A stretch of 57,056 bases of DNA from an uncultured Pseudomonadota bacterium (lineage in GTDB: Bacteria > Pseudomonadota > Alphaproteobacteria > RF32 > CAG-239). A program made the position numbers and the translations under genes. The DNA lies in assembly GCA_902785935.1 (NCBI GenBank), contig CADAAN010000001.1, forward strand, positions 1 to 57,056. The letters are read 5' to 3'. This document shows, one piece after another, positions 7,119 to 56,269 of the stretch. Positions within the stretch are counted from its first letter, which is position 1. The number at the start of each line of letters is the position of its first letter. The notes under the pieces were generated by a model that saw only the letters and a list, made by a program, of their open reading frames with translations, had not been told where the DNA came from and ran no database searches.

Positions 7119-7895
7119 TTACCGATACCTTATCGAGAAGGTATTTGTCTTGCCCGCCACGGCATTCGCCTCATCGATGGTGTAAATGCGCTTTTTGATG
7201 TAATTCGGCGTGCCGATATCACTGAGCCGAGCATAGTATTTGCCGCCTACAAGATATTGATTGTCAGATGTTTGTTGATATTCAATAACTTCTGCCGCGT
7301 CGCCGCGATAAGCGATGGCGGCTTCACAAGCATCCTTCATTTGAGGAGCGCAATAAAGTTTTTCAATCAATGTCGGAGTACTATTATTAGCTTTGAAAGC
7401 TGTCGGACTCAATGTAGTATTTGCGGGAATAACAAGTGTTGTGATACCTGTTGTTTCGAGCGCTTCTGTATCAATAGTAACATTATCCGGTATTGTTAAA
7501 TTTTCAAGAGAGGTACAATTTTCTAATCCGCCTGGGAGTATCTCTCTTAAAGATTGCGGTAATTCAATATTTTTCAAATTTTCAAATCTAAAAAATGCAT
7601 TATAACCAATGCTTGTAATGCCTTCCTCGATACTAATGTTTTGGATGTTATTTCTAACAGCATACCAAGGTTCGCTCGTCGTGTACCAGCCTCCCATCGG
7701 GCCCTGACCGGAAAGTGTCATTGTACCGACCGATTTGATTGAGCCGTCGGGCTGAACTTCATCTTCATAAGTCACGTGTGCGAGGCAATTTTCGCCGCAC
7801 TGAAAACAATCAGTGTCGTTAAGTGTTTCAAGTGTACAATCCGCTTTTGCATTGAAACTCAGAATTAATCCCAAAATCAAAACATATTTCTTCAT
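7119..7895 (-). CDS. Secreted LRR (BspA-like) protein 1 with conserved C-terminal tail
   Basis: A 258-residue protein with a signal peptide (MKKYVLILGLILSFNAKA, cleavage before DCTLE). A cysteine-rich N-terminus (CFQCGENC) is followed by short leucine-rich repeats of the LRR_5/BspA type (ITSIGYNAFFRFENLKNIEL, then LRE, LENLTIP, ITTLVIP units). A linker (EKLYCAPQMKDACEAAIAYRGD) leads to the tail KKRIYTIDEANAVAGK then NTFSIRYR. The tail recurs in LRR genes at 30327, 33742 and 41030 and in the remnant at 55825. BspA-like LRR proteins often mediate surface adhesion; no ligand can be predicted here. A class 1 leader RNA ends just upstream. Confidence 0.82.
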   Translation of the reverse strand: MKKYVLILGLILSFNAKADCTLETLNDTDCFQCGENCLAHVTYEDEVQPDGSIKSVGTMTLSGQGPMGGWYTTSEPWYAVRNNIQNISIEEGITSIGYNAFFRFENLKNIELPQSLREILPGGLENCTSLENLTIPDNVTIDTEALETTGITTLVIPANTTLSPTAFKANNSTPTLIEKLYCAPQMKDACEAAIAYRGDAAEVIEYQQTSDNQYLVGGKYYARLSDIGTPNYIKKRIYTIDEANAVAGKTNTFSIRYR

Positions 7896-7926: not shown

Positions 7927-8082
7927 AAAAAAATCACTTCAGAAAAAATCCAAAGTGGGAGCTATACGAACTGTGTAGATGCAGTTTCTCTTCTTCGTCA
8001 CAAAGTGCTTATTCCGAGAACTCCCTTTAAAAGGAGTCTTTATCTACAAAGTGTCGTATAACACCGCAACCATTTTGGTTAC
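7927..8082 (-). ncRNA. Class 1 structured leader RNA, copy a (upstream of LRR protein 1)
   Basis: Read on the minus strand, the RNA starts with the conserved hairpin AACCAAAATGGTT and GCGGTGTT. Two long-range helices follow: P1 (TATACGA 8060-8054 with TCGTATA 7969-7963) and P2 (TGTAGAT 8048-8042 with ATCTACA 7980-7974). An internal hairpin ACTCC/GGAGT lies at about 8035-8019. The RNA ends in an intrinsic terminator (CACTTT/GAAGTG stem, U-run 7933-7927) 31 bp before the ATG. P1 and P2 keep pairing in the three other copies despite different bases. The family is not one I recognise. It is either a cis-acting attenuator/riboswitch or a separate small RNA. Confidence 0.8.
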
Positions 8083-19046: not shown

Positions 19047-19391
19047 TTAATAAAAACACTTCATAAAGAGGTCTATTGTTTTGCCGATGTAATCCAAATC
19101 GGCACCATTTAGGCGTTTGATGTTTTCAAATATCTCAACCTCTTTTTTAAGGCGCATTATGCTTTTTGACTCTTCTGTATGAAATCCGAATAATTCATCA
19201 AGACCGGTGTTAAAAATTTTCGATATGCTTAAGACCAGTCTTAGTTCAGGCATCACAAAACCGCGTTCTAAATTTGAAATTGTCCGCCACGACACATTGC
19301 ATTTTGCGGCTAAATCTTCTTGCGTCAGGTGATTGCTTTTACGTAAGGTTTGCACTTTAATCCCTAAGTATTTTTGAATTTCATTTGCCAT
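19047..19391 (-). CDS. XRE-family helix-turn-helix regulator
   Basis: A 114-residue protein with an N-terminal HTH_3 domain (KVQTLRKSNHLTQEDLAAKC, VSWRTISNLERGFVMPEL). A short helical tail follows. The ATG at 19391 (MANEIQKYLG) was chosen; an upstream ATG extends well into the preceding gene. It overlaps the 3' end of the PLD-like gene by 11 bp, so it is probably co-transcribed with it and with the class 2 leader. It may regulate the nuclease or its own transcript; the target is unknown. Confidence 0.8.
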   Translation of the reverse strand: MANEIQKYLGIKVQTLRKSNHLTQEDLAAKCNVSWRTISNLERGFVMPELRLVLSISKIFNTGLDELFGFHTEESKSIMRLKKEVEIFENIKRLNGADLDYIGKTIDLFMKCFY

Positions 19392-19908
19392 TAAACCACG
19401 CCTTTGATTTTTTTTCTGAGTTGACAGACCATAATTCATTAAAGCGATTTTGATATTTTTTTACAATCTCAGGTTCACTCAATAAAAAAATACAGTTTTC
19501 TGTATTTTGTTTGCTTGCCGCATTTGTCCAATTGTATGAGCCGGTCAATATGAATGCATCATCAAAAATCGCAAATTTATCGTGTGCGGATTTATATTTT
19601 GTGTGTACTTTGATATTGATGCCATTGGCAAATATTTGCCGTGCTTTTGAGGATTTAAGGCTTGCCTGACTCTTATCGGTTAAAATACGCAATTTTATAC
19701 CACGTCGGTGCGCTTTTTCTAAGGCTTTAACAATATTTCGGTTATTGATTGCATAAACAGCAATATCAATTGTTTTTTGAGAATTATTTATCAAATCAAT
19801 GATTTCATTTTCGCAGTCATTTGATGGTGAAAAGAAAACTTTGATTTCAGCTTTCACCGAAAAAACCCACATCAATATTAAAAATATACAAACAGTTTTT
19901 TTTCTCAT
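19381..19908 (-). CDS. Secreted phospholipase D-like nuclease (Nuc family)
   Basis: A 175-residue protein with a signal peptide (MRKKTVCIFLILMWVFSVKA, cleaved before EIKVF). A single PLD motif follows: H-D-K-F-A-I-F-D-D with TGSYNWTNAAS, the HKD motif of Nuc-type endonucleases. Such enzymes act as dimers and degrade DNA outside the cytoplasm. The start at 19908 was picked for its signal peptide and a GAGGG ribosome site. The terminator of a class 2 leader RNA ends just upstream, so expression probably depends on read-through or a site inside the leader. Confidence 0.82.
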   Translation of the reverse strand: MRKKTVCIFLILMWVFSVKAEIKVFFSPSNDCENEIIDLINNSQKTIDIAVYAINNRNIVKALEKAHRRGIKLRILTDKSQASLKSSKARQIFANGINIKVHTKYKSAHDKFAIFDDAFILTGSYNWTNAASKQNTENCIFLLSEPEIVKKYQNRFNELWSVNSEKKSKAWFNGK

Positions 19909-19921
19909 CAAAACCCTCAGT

Positions 19922-20172
19922 AAAAAACCGCTTTTGATAAGCGGCCGGGGCATGCAAAAATCATATTCGCTAAAATGACTTCGATAGCCTTTAGAAAATA
20001 TCCTTGAACATCCGCTATCGATACCCCGACCAAGTTTTCGGGGATAATCGTGCTTAACTAAAAAAAGAAAAACACATCAAAAACAGTGTTATCCATCACT
20101 GTAGCGAATAGAGCCTTTGCAAGCTCCGTGCCCTTTAAAAGGCACTTAATAAAAAGATAAATCTCTTTATCT
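19922..20172 (-). ncRNA. Class 2 structured leader RNA, copy a (upstream of PLD-like nuclease)
   Basis: On the minus strand, 5' hairpins (AGATAAA/TTTATCT, GTGCC/GGCAC) are followed by three conserved helices: a long-range helix ATTCGCTA (20109-20102) with TAGCGAAT (19972-19965), helix TCGATAGC (20021-20014) with GCTATCGA (19988-19981), and a CCCCGA/TCGGGG hairpin after GATTAT. The RNA ends with a CCGCTT/AAGCGG terminator (19944-19928, U-run 19927-19922), 14 bp before the start codon. Promoter: TTGACA 20207-20202, 17-bp spacer, TTGAAT 20184-20179. The same helices with different bases occur at 34605 and 56043. I do not recognise the family. Confidence 0.78.
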
Positions 20173-30326: not shown

Positions 30327-31172
30327 TCAGCGGTATCTTATCTTGACCGAATTAACCTTTCCCGCCACCTGATTTGCATCATCGATAGTGTAAATGCGCT
30401 TTTTGATATAATTTTGTGTACCGATTTTACCGAGACTGTCATAAAATTTGCCACCATAAAGATACTCGTTTCCAAGACGTCTGTACATTTTTAAGTCCAC
30501 ATCTTCAAGAGGTACATAGCCACCGTCAACCCCCGTAAAAGAGTCGGCGTCTTTTAAGTAATCAGCGCATTTTTTCTGATATTTTTCTGAGCAATATATT
30601 TCATTGATATGTGTTAATGCGCTATGAGCCATCCCTAAACCACCCTCATCAAACAAAGAGTCCGGAAGTATAAGACTTGTCACACCGGATGCTCCGAAAT
30701 TATAATGTCCGAGGTATTTAAGCGAATCCGGCAACTCGATATGCGTCAATAAAGGGTCACCATAAAAAACGGCTACATTTATCCTTTCAAGCTGTGAATT
30801 TTCTTCAAAATTAACTGATGTTAAGTTTCTCATTGACTGAAAAGCTCCATCGCCGATAGATAGAACCGAATTGCCTATTTTAGCAGACGTTAACTGCGCT
30901 TGATGAAAAGCAAGTGTTCCGATAGATGTAATACCCGATATTTCAACCGTAGAAATATCTGTTCCCCATGGTGAAGGATTGTCATAATAAGTATGTGTAT
31001 AATCAGCCATTTTTCCAGTACCCCAAATCTTGAGATTTCCCTCATCATCAAGGCTCCAGTTACAATCATCATAAGTTTGTGTATTTTCATTATATGCACC
31101 GCAATTACCCGATGTTTCGGCATTGACGTTAAAACTTAAAACTAACCCTAAAATCAAAATTATTTTTTTCAT
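30327..31172 (-). CDS. Secreted LRR (BspA-like) protein 2 with conserved C-terminal tail
   Basis: A 281-residue protein with a signal peptide (MKKIILILGLVLSFNVNA). LRR units occur at about residues 75-190 (ISGITSIGTLAFHQAQLTSA, NSVLSIGDGAFQSM, LTHIELPDSLKYLG, VTSLILPDSL). A linker containing CSEKYQKKCADYLKD and YLYGGKFYDSLGKIG precedes the tail KKRIYTIDDANQVAGK then NSVKIRYR. The YLYGGKFYDSLG segment matches YLVGGKYYARLS in LRR protein 1. A class 1 leader RNA ends about 95 bp upstream. Host-surface binding is a family-level guess. Confidence 0.82.
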   Translation of the reverse strand: MKKIILILGLVLSFNVNAETSGNCGAYNENTQTYDDCNWSLDDEGNLKIWGTGKMADYTHTYYDNPSPWGTDISTVEISGITSIGTLAFHQAQLTSAKIGNSVLSIGDGAFQSMRNLTSVNFEENSQLERINVAVFYGDPLLTHIELPDSLKYLGHYNFGASGVTSLILPDSLFDEGGLGMAHSALTHINEIYCSEKYQKKCADYLKDADSFTGVDGGYVPLEDVDLKMYRRLGNEYLYGGKFYDSLGKIGTQNYIKKRIYTIDDANQVAGKVNSVKIRYR

Positions 31173-31266: not shown

Positions 31267-31423
31267 AAAAAAAATCACTTCAGAAAATTCCAAAGTGGGA
31301 GCTAGATGAACTGTCAAAACGCAGTTTCTTTTATTCGTCACAAATGTGCTTATCTCAAGAACTCCCTTTTAAAGGAGTTTATGTTTTGAAAGTGTCATCT
31401 AACACCGCAACCATTTTGGTTAC
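31267..31423 (-). ncRNA. Class 1 structured leader RNA, copy b (upstream of LRR protein 2)
   Basis: Minus strand, starting GTAACCAAAATGGTT. P1 pairs TAGATGA (31401-31395) with TCATCTA (31309-31303); P2 pairs TCAAAAC (31389-31383) with GTTTTGA (31320-31314). Both differ from copy a yet stay paired. The internal hairpin is ACTCCT/GGGAGT. The terminator ends in the U-run 31274-31267. Unlike the other copies, about 95 bp separate the terminator from the gene start. Promoter: TTGACT 31458-31453, 17-bp spacer, AAAAAT 31435-31430. Confidence 0.8.
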
Positions 31424-33741: not shown

Positions 33742-34578
33742 TCATCTATACCTAATCGAAACAGTATTCGTCTTGCCTGCAACAACATTCGCTTCATCGA
33801 TGGTATAAATACGTTTTTTGTTGTAATCACCTGATAAAATATCACTTGCGTTGTTATACCAATGATTTTTATAAAAAATTTTATTACCATCTTTTTTATA
33901 GGTTATTATATTGATTTCTTTTCCTAAATCTTTTTTCCATTGTGTGGCTGCTGCACATTGGTCGGCAACAGCTTCACTGCAATAGAGATTTTTAATTAAA
34001 GCGCTACTATGATCGTCATCTTCTCCACCAAAAGCGTTAGGTGAAACAATTGTTACGGTTGACGGAACGGTAAAATTTTCGATTTGTGTATTACAAAAAG
34101 CGCGATAAGGAAGTTCTGTAATACCTTCAGGAATATTATTAATATTTTCAAGCTGAGAGTACGCAAATGCATAAACTCCCAAGGACGTTAAAGTGCTCGG
34201 TAAATCAATGTTTGTAATATTCGTTGCTTCAAAAGATGAATTACCGATTGATTCCAGGCCTTCCGGCAATTCAACGGAAGTTACTGAGTGCATCCTGAAA
34301 AAAGCACCATCACCGATTGATGAAATACCATCACTGACAATAATTTTTGATACACCGCTATCATACCATGGAGCATCATTGTAACAGTCAAAGTCGTCGC
34401 AATGTATATAAGATTGTATGCTTGCCGACTGGGAAAAATCAATCGGTGAAATGGTCAAAACACCATCTTCAATGATATATTTGCAATTTGTACCGCAAGT
34501 GTAAAGTTCATCAGCTTTGAGGTTAATGCACAATAAAAAAGCAGATGCAAAAGAAATTAACAATTTTGAATAATTCAT
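33742..34578 (-). CDS. Secreted LRR (BspA-like) protein 3 with conserved C-terminal tail
   Basis: A 278-residue protein with a signal peptide (MNYSKLLISFASAFLLCINL, cleaved near KADEL). A CGTNCKYIIEDG motif is followed by LRR units (ISSIGDGAFFRMHSVTSVEL, LESIGNSSFEATNITNIDL, LTSLGVYAFAYSQLENI). A linker with CSEAVADQCAAATQWKKDLG leads to KKRIYTIDEANVVAGK then NTVSIRYR. In contrast to the other intact LRR genes, it is preceded by a class 2, not class 1, leader RNA. An AAGGATAAATGAG ribosome site precedes the ATG. Confidence 0.82.
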   Translation of the reverse strand: MNYSKLLISFASAFLLCINLKADELYTCGTNCKYIIEDGVLTISPIDFSQSASIQSYIHCDDFDCYNDAPWYDSGVSKIIVSDGISSIGDGAFFRMHSVTSVELPEGLESIGNSSFEATNITNIDLPSTLTSLGVYAFAYSQLENINNIPEGITELPYRAFCNTQIENFTVPSTVTIVSPNAFGGEDDDHSSALIKNLYCSEAVADQCAAATQWKKDLGKEINIITYKKDGNKIFYKNHWYNNASDILSGDYNKKRIYTIDEANVVAGKTNTVSIRYR

Positions 34579-34604: not shown

Positions 34605-34858
34605 AAAAAGTCGCACCTTTGATGGAGCGACGGGGTGTAAAACAACCATATAGTATGAAATGATCCCAATAATCTTTAGGAGAACCTTGTACATTCATTA
34701 TCGGCACCCCGACTTTTTTCGGGGATAATGGTGTTTTTAAAAACAAAAAAAACACTATAAAATTACAGTGTTACCATCACTGCATACTATAATAAGCTGT
34801 TTTAGAGCCCCGCACCCTATCAGGGTACTGAACAGAAAAGCCCAAACTTCTCTATCTG
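34605..34858 (-). ncRNA. Class 2 structured leader RNA, copy b (upstream of LRR protein 3)
   Basis: Minus strand. The long-range helix pairs TATAGTATG (34791-34783) with CATACTATA (34657-34649). The second helix pairs CCGATAAT (34704-34697) with ATTATTGG (34673-34666; one G-U). The CCCCGA/TCGGGG hairpin is conserved. 5' hairpins include ACCCT-GAT-AGGGT. The terminator has stem GTCGC/GCGAC (34631-34610) with U-run 34609-34605, 26 bp before the ATG. Promoter: TTGACA 34893-34888, 17-bp spacer, AATCAT 34870-34865. Bases before the terminator (CCCCG) are complementary to CGGGG at 34812-34808. Confidence 0.78.
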
Positions 34859-40998: not shown

Positions 40999-41031
40999 GA
41001 ACCACGCCCTTTATGCGTGGTTCTTTTTTTT
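40999..41031 (+). terminator. Intrinsic terminator of the 40401 gene
   Basis: Perfect 9-bp stem GAACCACGC (40999-41007) with GCGTGGTTC (41015-41023), followed by T8. It abuts the stop of the convergent LRR gene. Confidence 0.88.
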
Positions 41032-42043
41032 ATCGATACCGAATCGAGAAAGTATTGGTTTTACCTGCGACCTGATTGGCCTCATCGATGGTGTAAATGC
41101 GGAATTTGACATTGTTGCCTAAAGCAAAATCTTCCATCGAATTATAAATCTTTGAACCGACTTTGAAAGGCGCACCGTTTGAGGCCAATATATCTTCACA
41201 GTTTTGTTTGTCCGTGCATGCCGCACCACTTGCAAACAAATCAAGCGTTGCCCAATATTTTCCGCCGACTTCAAAGGGCTTGCCCTGCGAGGCGGCATCC
41301 AAAATATCTTGGCAGTTTTGCGCATTATCACAAGCGGCGCCTTTGGTCATCAAATCTGCCGTTGCATAAAGTTTATCCCCGATTTGATAAAATCCGTCGT
41401 CGCTTTTTTGATACGCTATCACAGAAACATTATCTCCGCGATAAGCAACCACTGCCGCACAAGCATCTTTCTGTTCAGAAAGACAATAAATTTTTTCAAT
41501 CGGCGTACTGCCATAATACGGACTGTCAAAAATATCCTCTCCTGAAAGTAATTTTGCATTCTTGGGGATAACAATGCTTGTTAAGCCGGTTCCCTGCAAT
41601 GATGCACGATGGATATTAACACCATCCGGAAGTGATAGCGATTTTAATTGAGGACAAGATTGAAAAGCCCCCGGTTCTAAATTAAGCAATGTTGACGGGA
41701 GTTCAACTTCAGATAAGTTCATAAAATGATAAAAACCATTAAACCCGACAGAGGTTATTCCTTCATCAACCACGACTTTTGTAACTTCTGAAGATTTGAC
41801 ATACCAAGGTGTGGGTGTGTCGCCATCATAATTAAAATTTCCCATATTACCTTCACCCGAAACGGTTAGAATTTTTTCGGTCGTATTATTATTTTTTATC
41901 GATTCGCTATATCTCATAACACAACTTGCACCACATTCAAAACAAGTCTTTGCTTGCATTTCCGAATCACTGCAAGGTACATATGTTGATGCATATATTT
42001 TAAAACTGAGCATAAAACTCACAATAAAGGCCCTTTGTTTCAT
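41030..42043 (-). CDS. Secreted LRR (BspA-like) protein 4 with a duplicated C-terminal module and conserved tail
   Basis: A 337-residue protein with a signal peptide (MKQRAFIVSFMLSFKIYAS). CFECGASC resembles CFQCGENC of LRR protein 1. LRR units follow (ITSVGFNGFYHFMNLSEVEL, LTSIVIP). The linker CLSEQKDACAAVVAYRGDN matches protein 1. Two copies of a module of about 36 residues occur at about 225-298 (LYATADLMTKGAACDNAQNC; YWATLDLFASGAACTDKQNC). The tail FRIYTIDEANQVAGK then NTFSIRYR closes the protein. A class 1 leader RNA ends 26 bp upstream. Confidence 0.82.
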   Translation of the reverse strand: MKQRAFIVSFMLSFKIYASTYVPCSDSEMQAKTCFECGASCVMRYSESIKNNNTTEKILTVSGEGNMGNFNYDGDTPTPWYVKSSEVTKVVVDEGITSVGFNGFYHFMNLSEVELPSTLLNLEPGAFQSCPQLKSLSLPDGVNIHRASLQGTGLTSIVIPKNAKLLSGEDIFDSPYYGSTPIEKIYCLSEQKDACAAVVAYRGDNVSVIAYQKSDDGFYQIGDKLYATADLMTKGAACDNAQNCQDILDAASQGKPFEVGGKYWATLDLFASGAACTDKQNCEDILASNGAPFKVGSKIYNSMEDFALGNNVKFRIYTIDEANQVAGKTNTFSIRYR

Positions 42044-42068: not shown

Positions 42069-42225
42069 AAAAAAATCACTTCAGAAAAATTCCAAAGTGG
42101 AGGAGCTACTAAACTGTCAACACACAGTTTCTCTCATTCGTGCAAAAGCCTTATATCGAGAACTCCTACCAAAGAGGAGTTATGTGTTGAATGTGTTTAG
42201 TAAACACCGCAACCATTTTGGTTAC
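42069..42225 (-). ncRNA. Class 1 structured leader RNA, copy c (upstream of LRR protein 4)
   Basis: Minus strand, starting GTAACCAAAATGGTT. P1 pairs TACTAAA (42202-42196) with TTTAGTA (42113-42107). P2 pairs TCAACACA (42190-42183) with TGTGTTGA (42124-42117). The internal hairpin is ACTCCT/AGGAGT, and AGGAGTT (42167-42161) can pair with AGCTCCT (42107-42101) ahead of the terminator. The terminator stem CACTTT/GAAGTG ends in U-run 42075-42069. Promoter: TTGACA 42261-42256, 17-bp spacer, CATGAT 42238-42233. Confidence 0.8.
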
Positions 42226-47909: not shown

Positions 47910-47938
47910 TTGACAAGTATTCAAAACTGTAATTAAAT
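47910..47938 (+). promoter_or_regulatory. Promoter of class 1 leader RNA copy d
   Basis: TTGACA (47910-47915), a 17-bp spacer, TTAAAT (47933-47938). The conserved RNA start GTAACC begins 6 bp later at 47945, the same geometry as at copies a and b. Confidence 0.75.
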
Positions 47939-47944
47939 GAGAAC

Positions 47945-48106
47945 GTAACCAAAATGGTTGCGGTGTTTAGATGACATCTTCTTGAAGCATAGCTCCTTTA
48001 AAGAGGAGTTGTTGAGATAAGGGTATTTTGCCGCGAATAAAACAAACTGTGCTTCAACAGTTCATCTAGCTCCTCCGTTTTAGGTTATTTAAGACGGATT
48101 TTTTTT
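47945..48106 (+). ncRNA. Class 1 structured leader RNA, copy d (upstream of prepilin-like gene)
   Basis: Plus-strand copy starting GTAACCAAAATGGTTGCGG. P1 pairs TAGATGA (47968-47974) with TCATCTA (48062-48068); P2 pairs TTGAAGCA (47982-47989) with TGCTTCAA (48050-48057). The internal hairpin is CTCCT/AGGAG. The terminator has a different stem from the other copies (TCCGTTTTA 48074-48082 with TAAGACGGA 48090-48098) but the same position, then T8 (48099-48106). The gene starts 20 bp later. This copy shows the leader is not confined to LRR genes. Confidence 0.82.
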
Positions 48107-48126
48107 ATAAAAGAAAGGTACAACCA

Positions 48127-48741
48127 ATGAAAAATAATGAAACAGGCAGAAGTATGGTCGAGATGCTGGGCGTGTTGGCCATTGTCGGGGTATTATCGGC
48201 GGGCGCGTTAAAAGGTTATTCATCCGCGATGTTTAAATACAAAATGAATCAAACGATTGACATCACAACAAGGATGTTTCAACGCATTGAGGAACTGTCT
48301 CAAAAAGATTTGGGGAGCGAAGCGATTATCCAAGCAAGCAATGCCGTTGAATGGGGGCTTTTGGAAAAATGCGATTTAGAAGATGGATACAAATGCCGCC
48401 TGCCGATAGGAAGTGTTAGCGTAGATTTTTATGATATACCTGCTGATTATTGTTTTGATGGCAGTCCTGCAGGACTCGGAGGCCAGTTAGAATTTGAATT
48501 CACGGATGCAAAAAGTTGCACAGCCTTTTTATCGGCGCATTGGGAGCAAATGTTGCCTCAGGATTGGTGGAATCCGAATGGGTTTTTATTGGTTGAAGGA
48601 GAAAAAGAAGAAACCCATCTTTATTATCCGGGAGAAGATATAACGGAGATGCCGACAATGTCTGATTTTACAAATGCCTGCCAAAAAATATGTATAAACG
48701 GAAAGTGCTGGATTTTCTTACGATATCGTAACTGGTGTTAA
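48127..48741 (+). CDS. Prepilin-like protein (type IV pilin N-terminal methylation motif)
   Basis: A 204-residue protein. The start MKNNETGRSMVEMLGVLAIV has a prepilin peptidase site (cleavage after Gly7, Glu at +5) and a hydrophobic helix to about residue 30. The rest is a cysteine-containing globular domain ending in a cysteine pair (CQKICINGKC) and LRYRNWC. It is probably a pseudopilin or minor pilin placed at the surface by type II/IV machinery; no assembly genes are nearby. It is preceded by a class 1 leader RNA and followed by its own terminator. Confidence 0.82.
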   Translation: MKNNETGRSMVEMLGVLAIVGVLSAGALKGYSSAMFKYKMNQTIDITTRMFQRIEELSQKDLGSEAIIQASNAVEWGLLEKCDLEDGYKCRLPIGSVSVDFYDIPADYCFDGSPAGLGGQLEFEFTDAKSCTAFLSAHWEQMLPQDWWNPNGFLLVEGEKEETHLYYPGEDITEMPTMSDFTNACQKICINGKCWIFLRYRNWC

Positions 48742-49450: not shown

Positions 49451-49738
49451 ATGAACTTAAAAAACAGAGTCGTTTCAATTTATAATAAAAAGACAAGTAT
49501 GCGCCTTGCCGCCGAAGAGTGGACTGCGCTTGATGATATTTGCAAACGCGAGCACCTCAAACGCAAACAATTGCTCGAGATGCTTGAAGACCGAAAATCA
49601 CCTCAAATCGGACGCACCTCATTTGTCCGTCTGTTCGCAATTACCTATATGCACAAACTTGTCAAATTCGCTTCGTTGAAAACAAAATCATATCATGAAT
49701 ATGACGATGTTTATCAAACATTAGAGCTTATTTCATAG
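49451..49738 (+). CDS. Ribbon-helix-helix (RHH_4-like) protein
   Basis: A 95-residue protein resembling RHH_4 (COG4321): KKTSMRLAAEEWTALDDICK followed by RKQLLEMLEDRKSPQIGRTS and FVRLFAITYM. Such proteins are small DNA-binding dimers common in alphaproteobacteria. Regulated targets are unknown. A strong AAGGAG site and a terminator after the stop make it a single-gene unit; the stop is TAG. Confidence 0.8.
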   Translation: MNLKNRVVSIYNKKTSMRLAAEEWTALDDICKREHLKRKQLLEMLEDRKSPQIGRTSFVRLFAITYMHKLVKFASLKTKSYHEYDDVYQTLELIS

Positions 49739-55819: not shown

Positions 55820-55824
55820 TTTTC

Positions 55825-56015
55825 TCACCTGTACCTTATCTTCACGAAATTAACCTTCCCCGCAACGGCATTGGCCTCATCGATGGTATAGATGCGTTTG
55901 CCCTCATAGCCGAGAATATCACCATTTGCATTTTTCACGGTTATACTGCCGTCAGCGTTTTTGATATAATAGCTGTTGTTGCCATTAATACAAATATAAA
56001 TTGATTGTTTTTCAT
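55825..56015 (-). pseudogene. Collapsed LRR gene: start plus conserved C-terminal tail only
   Basis: Below the class 2 leader there is a ribosome site (AAGGAG) and an ATG at 56015 opening a signal-like peptide (MKNNQFIFVLMATTAIISK) that ends after 24 codons. In another frame, from 55983 to 55825, the typical LRR-protein end is intact: YYIKNADGSITVKN, GYEGKRIYTIDEANAVAGK, then NFVKIRYR. The signal, LRR and linker regions between were lost, with a frame change. The tail itself has no disabling mutation, so the loss may be recent, or the tail may be kept. Confidence 0.7.
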
Positions 56016-56042: not shown

Positions 56043-56269
56043 AAAAACCGCCTTTTAAAAAGCGGTCAGGGTGTTAGAAAATCATACAGAGTGAAATGAC
56101 TCCGATAGCCTTTAGAATAAATTTCCTGAACATTCGCCATCGGCACCCCGATCAAAACTTCGGGGATAAACGTTGTTTAAAACAAAAAACAACACCATAA
56201 AACAACAGTGTTATCCTTCACTGCACCCTGTAAGAGCTTTCTAAAGCCCTGCACTTCTTCTGAAATGCA
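56043..56269 (-). ncRNA. Class 2 structured leader RNA, copy c (upstream of collapsed LRR gene)
   Basis: Minus strand. A 5' hairpin (TGCATTTC/GAAGTGCA) is followed by the long-range helix TACAGGGTG (56232-56224) with CACTCTGTA (56093-56085; one G-U), the helix CCGATGGC (56143-56136) with GCTATCGG (56109-56102) and the CCCCGA/TCGGGG hairpin. The terminator is ACCGC/GCGGT (56066-56047) with U-run 56047-56043. Promoter: TTGACA 56304-56299, 17-bp spacer, TTATAA 56281-56276. CAGGG (56251-56247) is complementary to CCCTG just before the terminator (56071-56067). Confidence 0.78.

Follow-up and report, generated by a model that had tools for sequence, protein, structure and literature searches.

Candidate transcription-attenuating leaders of two classes precede LRR and prepilin-like genes in an uncultured rumen alphaproteobacterium

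The stretch of DNA analysed here, called the window (57,056 nucleotides), belongs to an uncultured bacterium whose assembled genome amounts to 1.46 Mb in 73 contigs and is 99% complete. Among its features (Table 1) is a prepilin-like gene that is preceded by a predicted promoter, a structured leader and an intrinsic terminator. This leader, which is copy d of an arrangement that we designate class 1, begins with a 23-nucleotide sequence, GTAACCAAAATGGTTGCGGTGTT, that occurs in exact form at four places in the window (8060-8082, 31401-31423 and 42203-42225 on the minus strand, and 47945-47967 on the plus strand); none would be expected by chance, and none was ever seen in dinucleotide shuffles of the window. 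The other three leaders (copies a to c) lie upstream of LRR genes, which in this window match LRR_5/BspA. The terminator stem of copy d reads TCCGTTTTAGG...AAGACGGA followed by eight T residues, compared with CACTTTGG...GAAGTG followed by seven in copies a to c. The protein encoded behind copy d contains the prepilin-like segment GRSMVEMLGVLAIVGVLSAG and gives a sub-threshold match to N_methyl (E = 0.007), and it is not similar to the LRR product of gene 7119-7895 (E = 40). These comparisons bear out the sequence-only reading of copy d as a class 1 leader with a different terminator stem in the same place, located ahead of a gene whose product is not related to that LRR protein. Downstream of the prepilin-like gene lies a ribbon-helix-helix gene (49451-49738; RHH_4, E = 8e-11), a relative of which is found approximately 300 nucleotides behind a class 1 leader at locus L122.

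Leaders of a second class, modelled by their 3′ half, occur at three additional places in the window. One lies ahead of a PLD-like gene whose product matches PLDc_2 (E = 4e-31). Another precedes the remnant of an LRR gene that carries stop codons, and this leader looks intact. The order of elements in class 2 is the same as in class 1, with a 5′ hairpin, a loop strand b that pairs with b′, strand g′ and the terminator. A sub-variant of class 2 has the 5′ hairpin GAACCGAGAGGTTC and the terminator CTGCCGCTC...GAGCGG.

Table 1. Leaders, leader elements and associated genes in the window
Feature	Position	Strand	Details
Class 1 leader copy a and terminator	7927..8082	-	Upstream of LRR gene 7119-7895
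Class 2 leader (3′ half as modelled)	19945..20050	-	Upstream of PLD-like gene 19381-19953
Class 1 leader copy b and terminator	31268..31423	-	Upstream of LRR gene 30327-31172
Class 2 leader (3′ half)	34630..34731	-	Upstream of LRR gene 33742-34578
Class 1 leader copy c and terminator	42069..42225	-	Upstream of LRR gene 41030-42043
Promoter of copy d (predicted)	47910..47938	+	-35 TTGACA 47910-47915, -10 TTAAAT 47933-47938, spacer 17 nt; consensus match
Copy d RNA	47945-48106	+	Start ~47945
P0 hairpin GTAACC-AAAAT-GGTTGC, RNA 5′ end	47945..47961	+	99.6% of cells paired; double changes in 6/6 pairs
Hairpin a:a′ GGTGT...ACATC, with loop strand b TAGATGA 47968-47974	47962..47978	+	Compensated in L043, L049 and outgroup L133
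Strand c	47982..47989	+	Partner c′ 48050-48057 (P2); 98.6% paired; 7/7 pairs covary
P3 hairpin	47993..48008	+	f CTCCTTT 47993-47999 : g GAGGAG 48003-48008
P4, with conserved internal loop GAGATAAG 48014-48021 / CGAATAA 48034-48040, candidate sensing site	48009..48045	+	
CTG...CAG hairpin d:d′ around c′ TGCTTCAA 48050-48057	48047..48060	+	Nearly invariant; one compensated case, L006
Strand b′ TCATCTA	48062..48068	+	Pairs with b (P1); 99.0% paired; double changes in 6/8 pairs
Strand g′ CTCCTCC	48070..48076	+	Covaries with g; overlaps terminator base
Intrinsic terminator of copy d, TCCGTTTTAGG-TTATTTAA-GACGGA, T8	48074..48106	+	
Prepilin-like protein gene	48127..48741	+	204 aa
Class 2 leader (3′ half)	56066..56172	-	Upstream of broken LRR gene remnant ~55822-56015

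Searches of the whole genome revealed that both classes are abundant. Fifty class 1 copies were found with at most two mismatches to the 23-nucleotide sequence (0 with a reversed-pattern control), and a covariance model (R1) identifies 64, all with E ≤ 2.4e-12. A model of the 3′ half of class 2 (R2) adds 71, for a total of approximately 135 leaders in 1.46 Mb, or one per ~11 kb. A promoter is recognizable by consensus match in all 50 strong class 1 copies, with a spacer of 17 nucleotides in 41 of them, and the distance from the -10 element to GTAACC is exactly 6 nucleotides in 39. Because this geometry is fixed, P0 probably starts at or near +1. The leader usually ends 50-65 nucleotides before the start codon. 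Promoter, leader and intrinsic terminator stand ahead of a co-directional gene in the manner of an attenuator. A 22-base core of the leader is identical in the rumen Alphaproteobacteria MAGs RGIG5118 and RUG11221. P0 is nearly identical across the copies of this species (an exact 21-mer in 41 of the 50, L001-L050) and different in other genera, whereas P1 and P2 differ between copies of this same genome. Homogenization within the genome is confined to one part of the leader. In one copy (L037:3669-3774), a natural deletion has removed c′, the CTG/CAG hairpin and the greater part of b′; the terminator is still present, and so is an open LRR-type gene.

The class 1 fold was derived by aligning and folding 49 copies, after which 96 copies from several genera were fitted to the resulting model. 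Of the cells in the 37 pairs of the default fold 98.3% are paired, a count that is biased towards this structure by the fitting of the alignment to it. The covariation of the default fold is 0.719; shuffling lowers it to 0.199 and sliding the partners to 0.099 or less, but the leader copies are related and such shuffle controls therefore overstate significance. The compensated types, in their number and their spread across genera, are the stronger argument; double changes are present in P0, P1, P2 and P4. Judged by this comparative evidence, the class 1 fold is real. The helices around the P4 internal loop vary across genera, but the loop itself, GANATAAG/CGAATAA, hardly changes, and its two halves may resemble UAA/GAN modules. 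Conserved structure of an aptamer-like kind, invariant loop positions and covarying helices are thus found together, as they are in riboswitches. In both leader classes strand b is located in the loop of a:a′ with the geometry of an H-type pseudoknot, and a:a′ and b:b′ may coexist in that form.

Strand g, the 3′ arm of P3, has two covarying partners. It covaries with f, the 5′ arm of P3 (4.83 vs 4.48 ± 0.05 shuffled), and also with g′, a CTCC-led strand between P1 and the terminator. In a test conducted outside the 96-copy alignment (n = 150), g and g′ form 6.07 of 7 possible Watson-Crick pairs, compared with 5.31 ± 0.05 for shuffled partners, and the corresponding values for class 2 are 1.76 of 2 and 1.27 ± 0.06. 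The matched types are GAGGAG:CTCCTC, GCGGAG:CTCCGC, GTGGAG:CTCCAC, GGGGAG:CTCCCC and AGGGAG:CTCCC, and the contingency of g and g′ in the genome of the window is 12/3/0/34. Since f and g′ both pair with one set of bases in g, f:g and g:g′ are mutually exclusive, and this is the only strict exclusion among the leader helices. The terminator 5′ arm shares 2-4 nucleotides with g′ in 124 of 150 copies, at the base pairs that adjoin the U-tract. From their sequences, then, the leaders appear to possess the two exclusive structures of an attenuator, one of which would compete with the terminator.

When g:g′ is forced, the local hairpins GGUGU:ACAYC and CUG:CAG and a shortened terminator form in most copies, at an expense of ~5-18 kcal/mol for the full RNA. 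By nested-energy folding, which is blind to pseudoknots, this fold lies 3-18 kcal/mol above the default, and most often more than 8. Because g:g′ costs energy, the default state is presumably off, and the on state would need binding, kinetics or a pseudoknot. A role for P0 as the antiterminator was considered and rejected. In this species the terminator 5′ arm could pair with the segment TAACCAAAATGG by complementarity (12/12 in L008), but other genera show free variation of P0, and helices between P0 and the terminator are not longer than those with swapped terminators (own, 7.26 vs 7.27; others, 6.72 vs 6.54 ± 0.11).

Leaders of both classes are closely associated with particular genes in this genome. 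Of its 80 LRR_5 genes 72 stand behind a leader (37 class 1, 35 class 2), where about five would be expected by chance, and a model-based search leaves only eight without one; an apparent third of LRR genes lacking leaders proved to be an artefact of searching with an exact class 2 pattern. Among 35 prepilin matches, 16 follow a leader (6 class 1, 10 class 2), and some of the remainder are later genes of the same cluster. Class 1 is accordingly no LRR-specific tag, as had been proposed from copy d alone, and the same is true of class 2. Nor is similarity between leaders tied to similarity between genes. Across the 50 strong copies, whose pairs are not independent, the Spearman correlation of leader-core identity with gene identity is 0.03. 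The leader cores of L010 (LRR) and L042 (prepilin) are 91% identical and their genes 49%. This lack of correlation, together with the shared core of L010 and L042, indicates that leaders have been exchanged between gene families, which agrees with the earlier suggestion that the leader moves between surface-protein genes. L011 and L048 share a gene start and 5′ UTR at 100% and a terminator at 97% identity, and a core at just 73% (background 68%).

Of 58 readable class 1 genes in this genome, approximately 55 look exported when judged by eye, and the exceptions are two HTH genes and one epimerase. A crude test finds an N-terminal hydrophobic stretch in 46 of the 58 downstream ORFs. The epimerase-like gene, which is NAD-dependent and represents a cytosolic exception, lies behind a weak class 1 copy (L143:1313-1453, minus strand).

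The distribution of class 1 across the lineage presents a different picture. Matches to R1 occur in 108 of 153 genomes of the order, representing 14 of 17 genera. Outside the order, among 289 genomes sampled from the class, R1 matches two that belong to a single other family, and there is one further, weak case. Within the genus, copy number ranges from 0 to 86, although some of the neighbours without a leader are incomplete assemblies. Outside the genus, 57 of 60 class 1 downstream ORFs are shorter than 125 amino acids and lack an N-terminal hydrophobic stretch by the same crude test, and most are small XRE/Cro-like HTH genes; the outgroup L133 shows the order leader-HTH-leader-HTH. Because class 1 heads short HTH genes elsewhere, surface genes seem to have been recruited later, within this genus. 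Class 2 elsewhere precedes genes for lipoproteins, exported proteins, glycosyltransferases and a prepilin as well as HTH genes, and across the family it keeps more envelope genes than class 1, alongside HTH and other genes. The view that the leaders define a regulon of exported proteins is consequently supported for class 1 in this genome but not lineage-wide, where class 1 genes outside the genus, but not those inside it, are mostly of the cytosolic kind.

No Rfam 15 family reaches its gathering score on any leader scanned, the c-di-GMP riboswitch (GEMM) is absent even from a permissive Rfam scan of copy d, and there is no Rfam match to T-box RNAs. Two sub-threshold hits were judged to be due to chance. 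One is a PyrR binding site in copy d (21.1 bits against a cut-off of 54; E = 0.75), a reading that also conflicts with the downstream LRR, prepilin or HTH genes, none of which is a pyrimidine gene; the other is RAGATH-21 on the opposite strand of L123. No description of these leaders was found in the open-licence literature. The pattern of leader sequences suggests an RNA switch that is absent from Rfam.

Comparison of the sequences establishes the elements and their positions, the covarying helices, the competition between f and g′, the association with genes throughout the genome and the exchange of leaders. A terminator combined with exclusive, covarying helices fits control by read-through, and we consider it probable that the leader acts in cis as an RNA switch, by means of transcription attenuation. 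In the proposed mechanism, the consensus promoter would yield an RNA of ~160 nucleotides that starts at the P0 hairpin. P1 (b:b′), P2 (c:c′), P3 (f:g) and P4 would be formed in the default fold and g′ would be free of g, leaving the intrinsic terminator intact so that transcription stops (off). In the alternative fold, g would quit f and pair with g′, thereby taking 2-4 nucleotides of the terminator base beside the U-tract, and the weakened terminator would let RNA polymerase continue into the surface-protein gene (on). The fold would be picked by a small molecule or protein, most simply through binding at the conserved P4 internal loop. Recurring at dozens of loci, this element could switch the majority of the LRR repertoire, and numerous prepilin genes, in concert; class 2 leaders, which repeat the layout, would act on the same gene families. 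We infer that g:g′ represents the on state, that the choice is made by a ligand or protein and that the response of the genes is a joint one.

Several other explanations deserve consideration. The closest is a variant of the attenuation switch whose probability overlaps with it, wherein an RNA-binding antiterminator protein or a polymerase-loaded factor, rather than a small molecule, binds the leader and stabilizes g:g′. The near-invariance of the P4 loop amid varying helices would suit a protein site, and the paralogous small HTH genes that the leader heads outside the genus could be self-regulatory, but small HTH proteins normally bind DNA and no candidate protein has been identified; we regard this variant as having real weight while being, on balance, doubtful. 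A challenge to switching itself is that g:g′ could belong, with a:a′ and b:b′, to one simultaneous pseudoknotted structure in which P3 (f:g) is an early folding intermediate. The H-type geometry seen in both classes is in keeping with such a structure, but the helices of f and of g′ draw on identical bases in g and cannot coexist, and f covaries with g across genera, which makes this reading unlikely.

Two further explanations remain. If the terminator stopped most transcripts and the gene lived on constitutive leak-through, each leader could be the source of an RNA of ~160 nucleotides that acts in trans or titrates a protein. A strong consensus promoter and a terminator do make every copy a complete transcription unit, of which there are more than 60 per genome. 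However, the copies are co-oriented with a gene at a characteristic distance from its start codon, nearly all LRR genes have one, and g′ covaries with g as well as with the terminator, which would be needless for a constitutive terminator, and hence we consider such small RNA production improbable. We rate as very improbable the view that the leader is selfish or repetitive DNA that spreads to sites ahead of genes, has no regulatory role and needs its fold only for its own spread or RNA stability. Its high copy number, the exchange of cores between unrelated genes and the location of several copies near contig ends could be explained in this way, but no element-borne gene is seen, orientation, promoter geometry and gene distance are constrained, the association is specific to a few gene families, and conservation of the fold reaches through 14 genera to a second family of the class. 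One strict leader pattern had no match in viral contigs, which is weak evidence against a phage origin given how narrow the pattern is.

The attenuation switch that we favour has recognizable parallels. In attenuators such as the PyrR leader and those of the trp/T-box type, one strand has two possible partners, of which the first leaves the terminator alone and the second disrupts it. Strand g would similarly pick between f, which spares the terminator, and g′, which would disrupt its base, although g′ differs from its counterparts in most known attenuators by overlapping the terminator by a mere 2-4 nucleotides. In its logic, the leader seems nearest to the c-di-GMP-II riboswitches of Clostridioides difficile, which control a conditional terminator upstream of pilA1 and sortase-dependent adhesin genes and turn expression on by read-through (PMC6366702). 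The likeness, which is one of working rather than of family membership, extends to a structured leader with a terminator, multiple copies per genome and location before pilin or surface-adhesin genes. The leaders described here differ in having another fold, no Rfam match and 135 representatives of two classes in 1.46 Mb. Tandem riboswitch copies are known ahead of surface-anchor genes (PMC9481103), and tandem leaders ahead of one gene are likewise found here. Two complete class 1 leaders lie within a few hundred bases of each other at L150, L153, L160, L133, L145, L146 and L178, and there is no gene of annotated size between them at L150, L153, L160 and L178. As a covarying RNA ahead of a characteristic gene set, the leader also resembles orphan riboswitch candidates derived from comparative genomics (PMC8040213), and the main text of that structured-RNA survey names none of these gene types.

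A broader proposal is that two related, undescribed riboswitch-like classes jointly control, through one intracellular signal, almost the whole LRR repertoire and many pilins of this small-genome rumen alphaproteobacterium, and that the element was ancestrally tied to small HTH regulators until, in this genus, it was recruited to surface genes and multiplied there. We offer this tentatively, as slightly more doubtful than likely. If true, it would describe an RNA-based regulon of unusual size, in which 64 class 1 and 71 class 2 leaders head 90% of the LRR genes, and a regulatory leader that moves between gene families in one genome and changes its regulon between genera. The search for a new ligand or RNA-binding factor could start from a defined RNA whose internal loop is conserved. 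Surface display in an uncultured gut lineage would then be controlled at the level of RNA read-through, and one intracellular signal would re-dress the cell surface.
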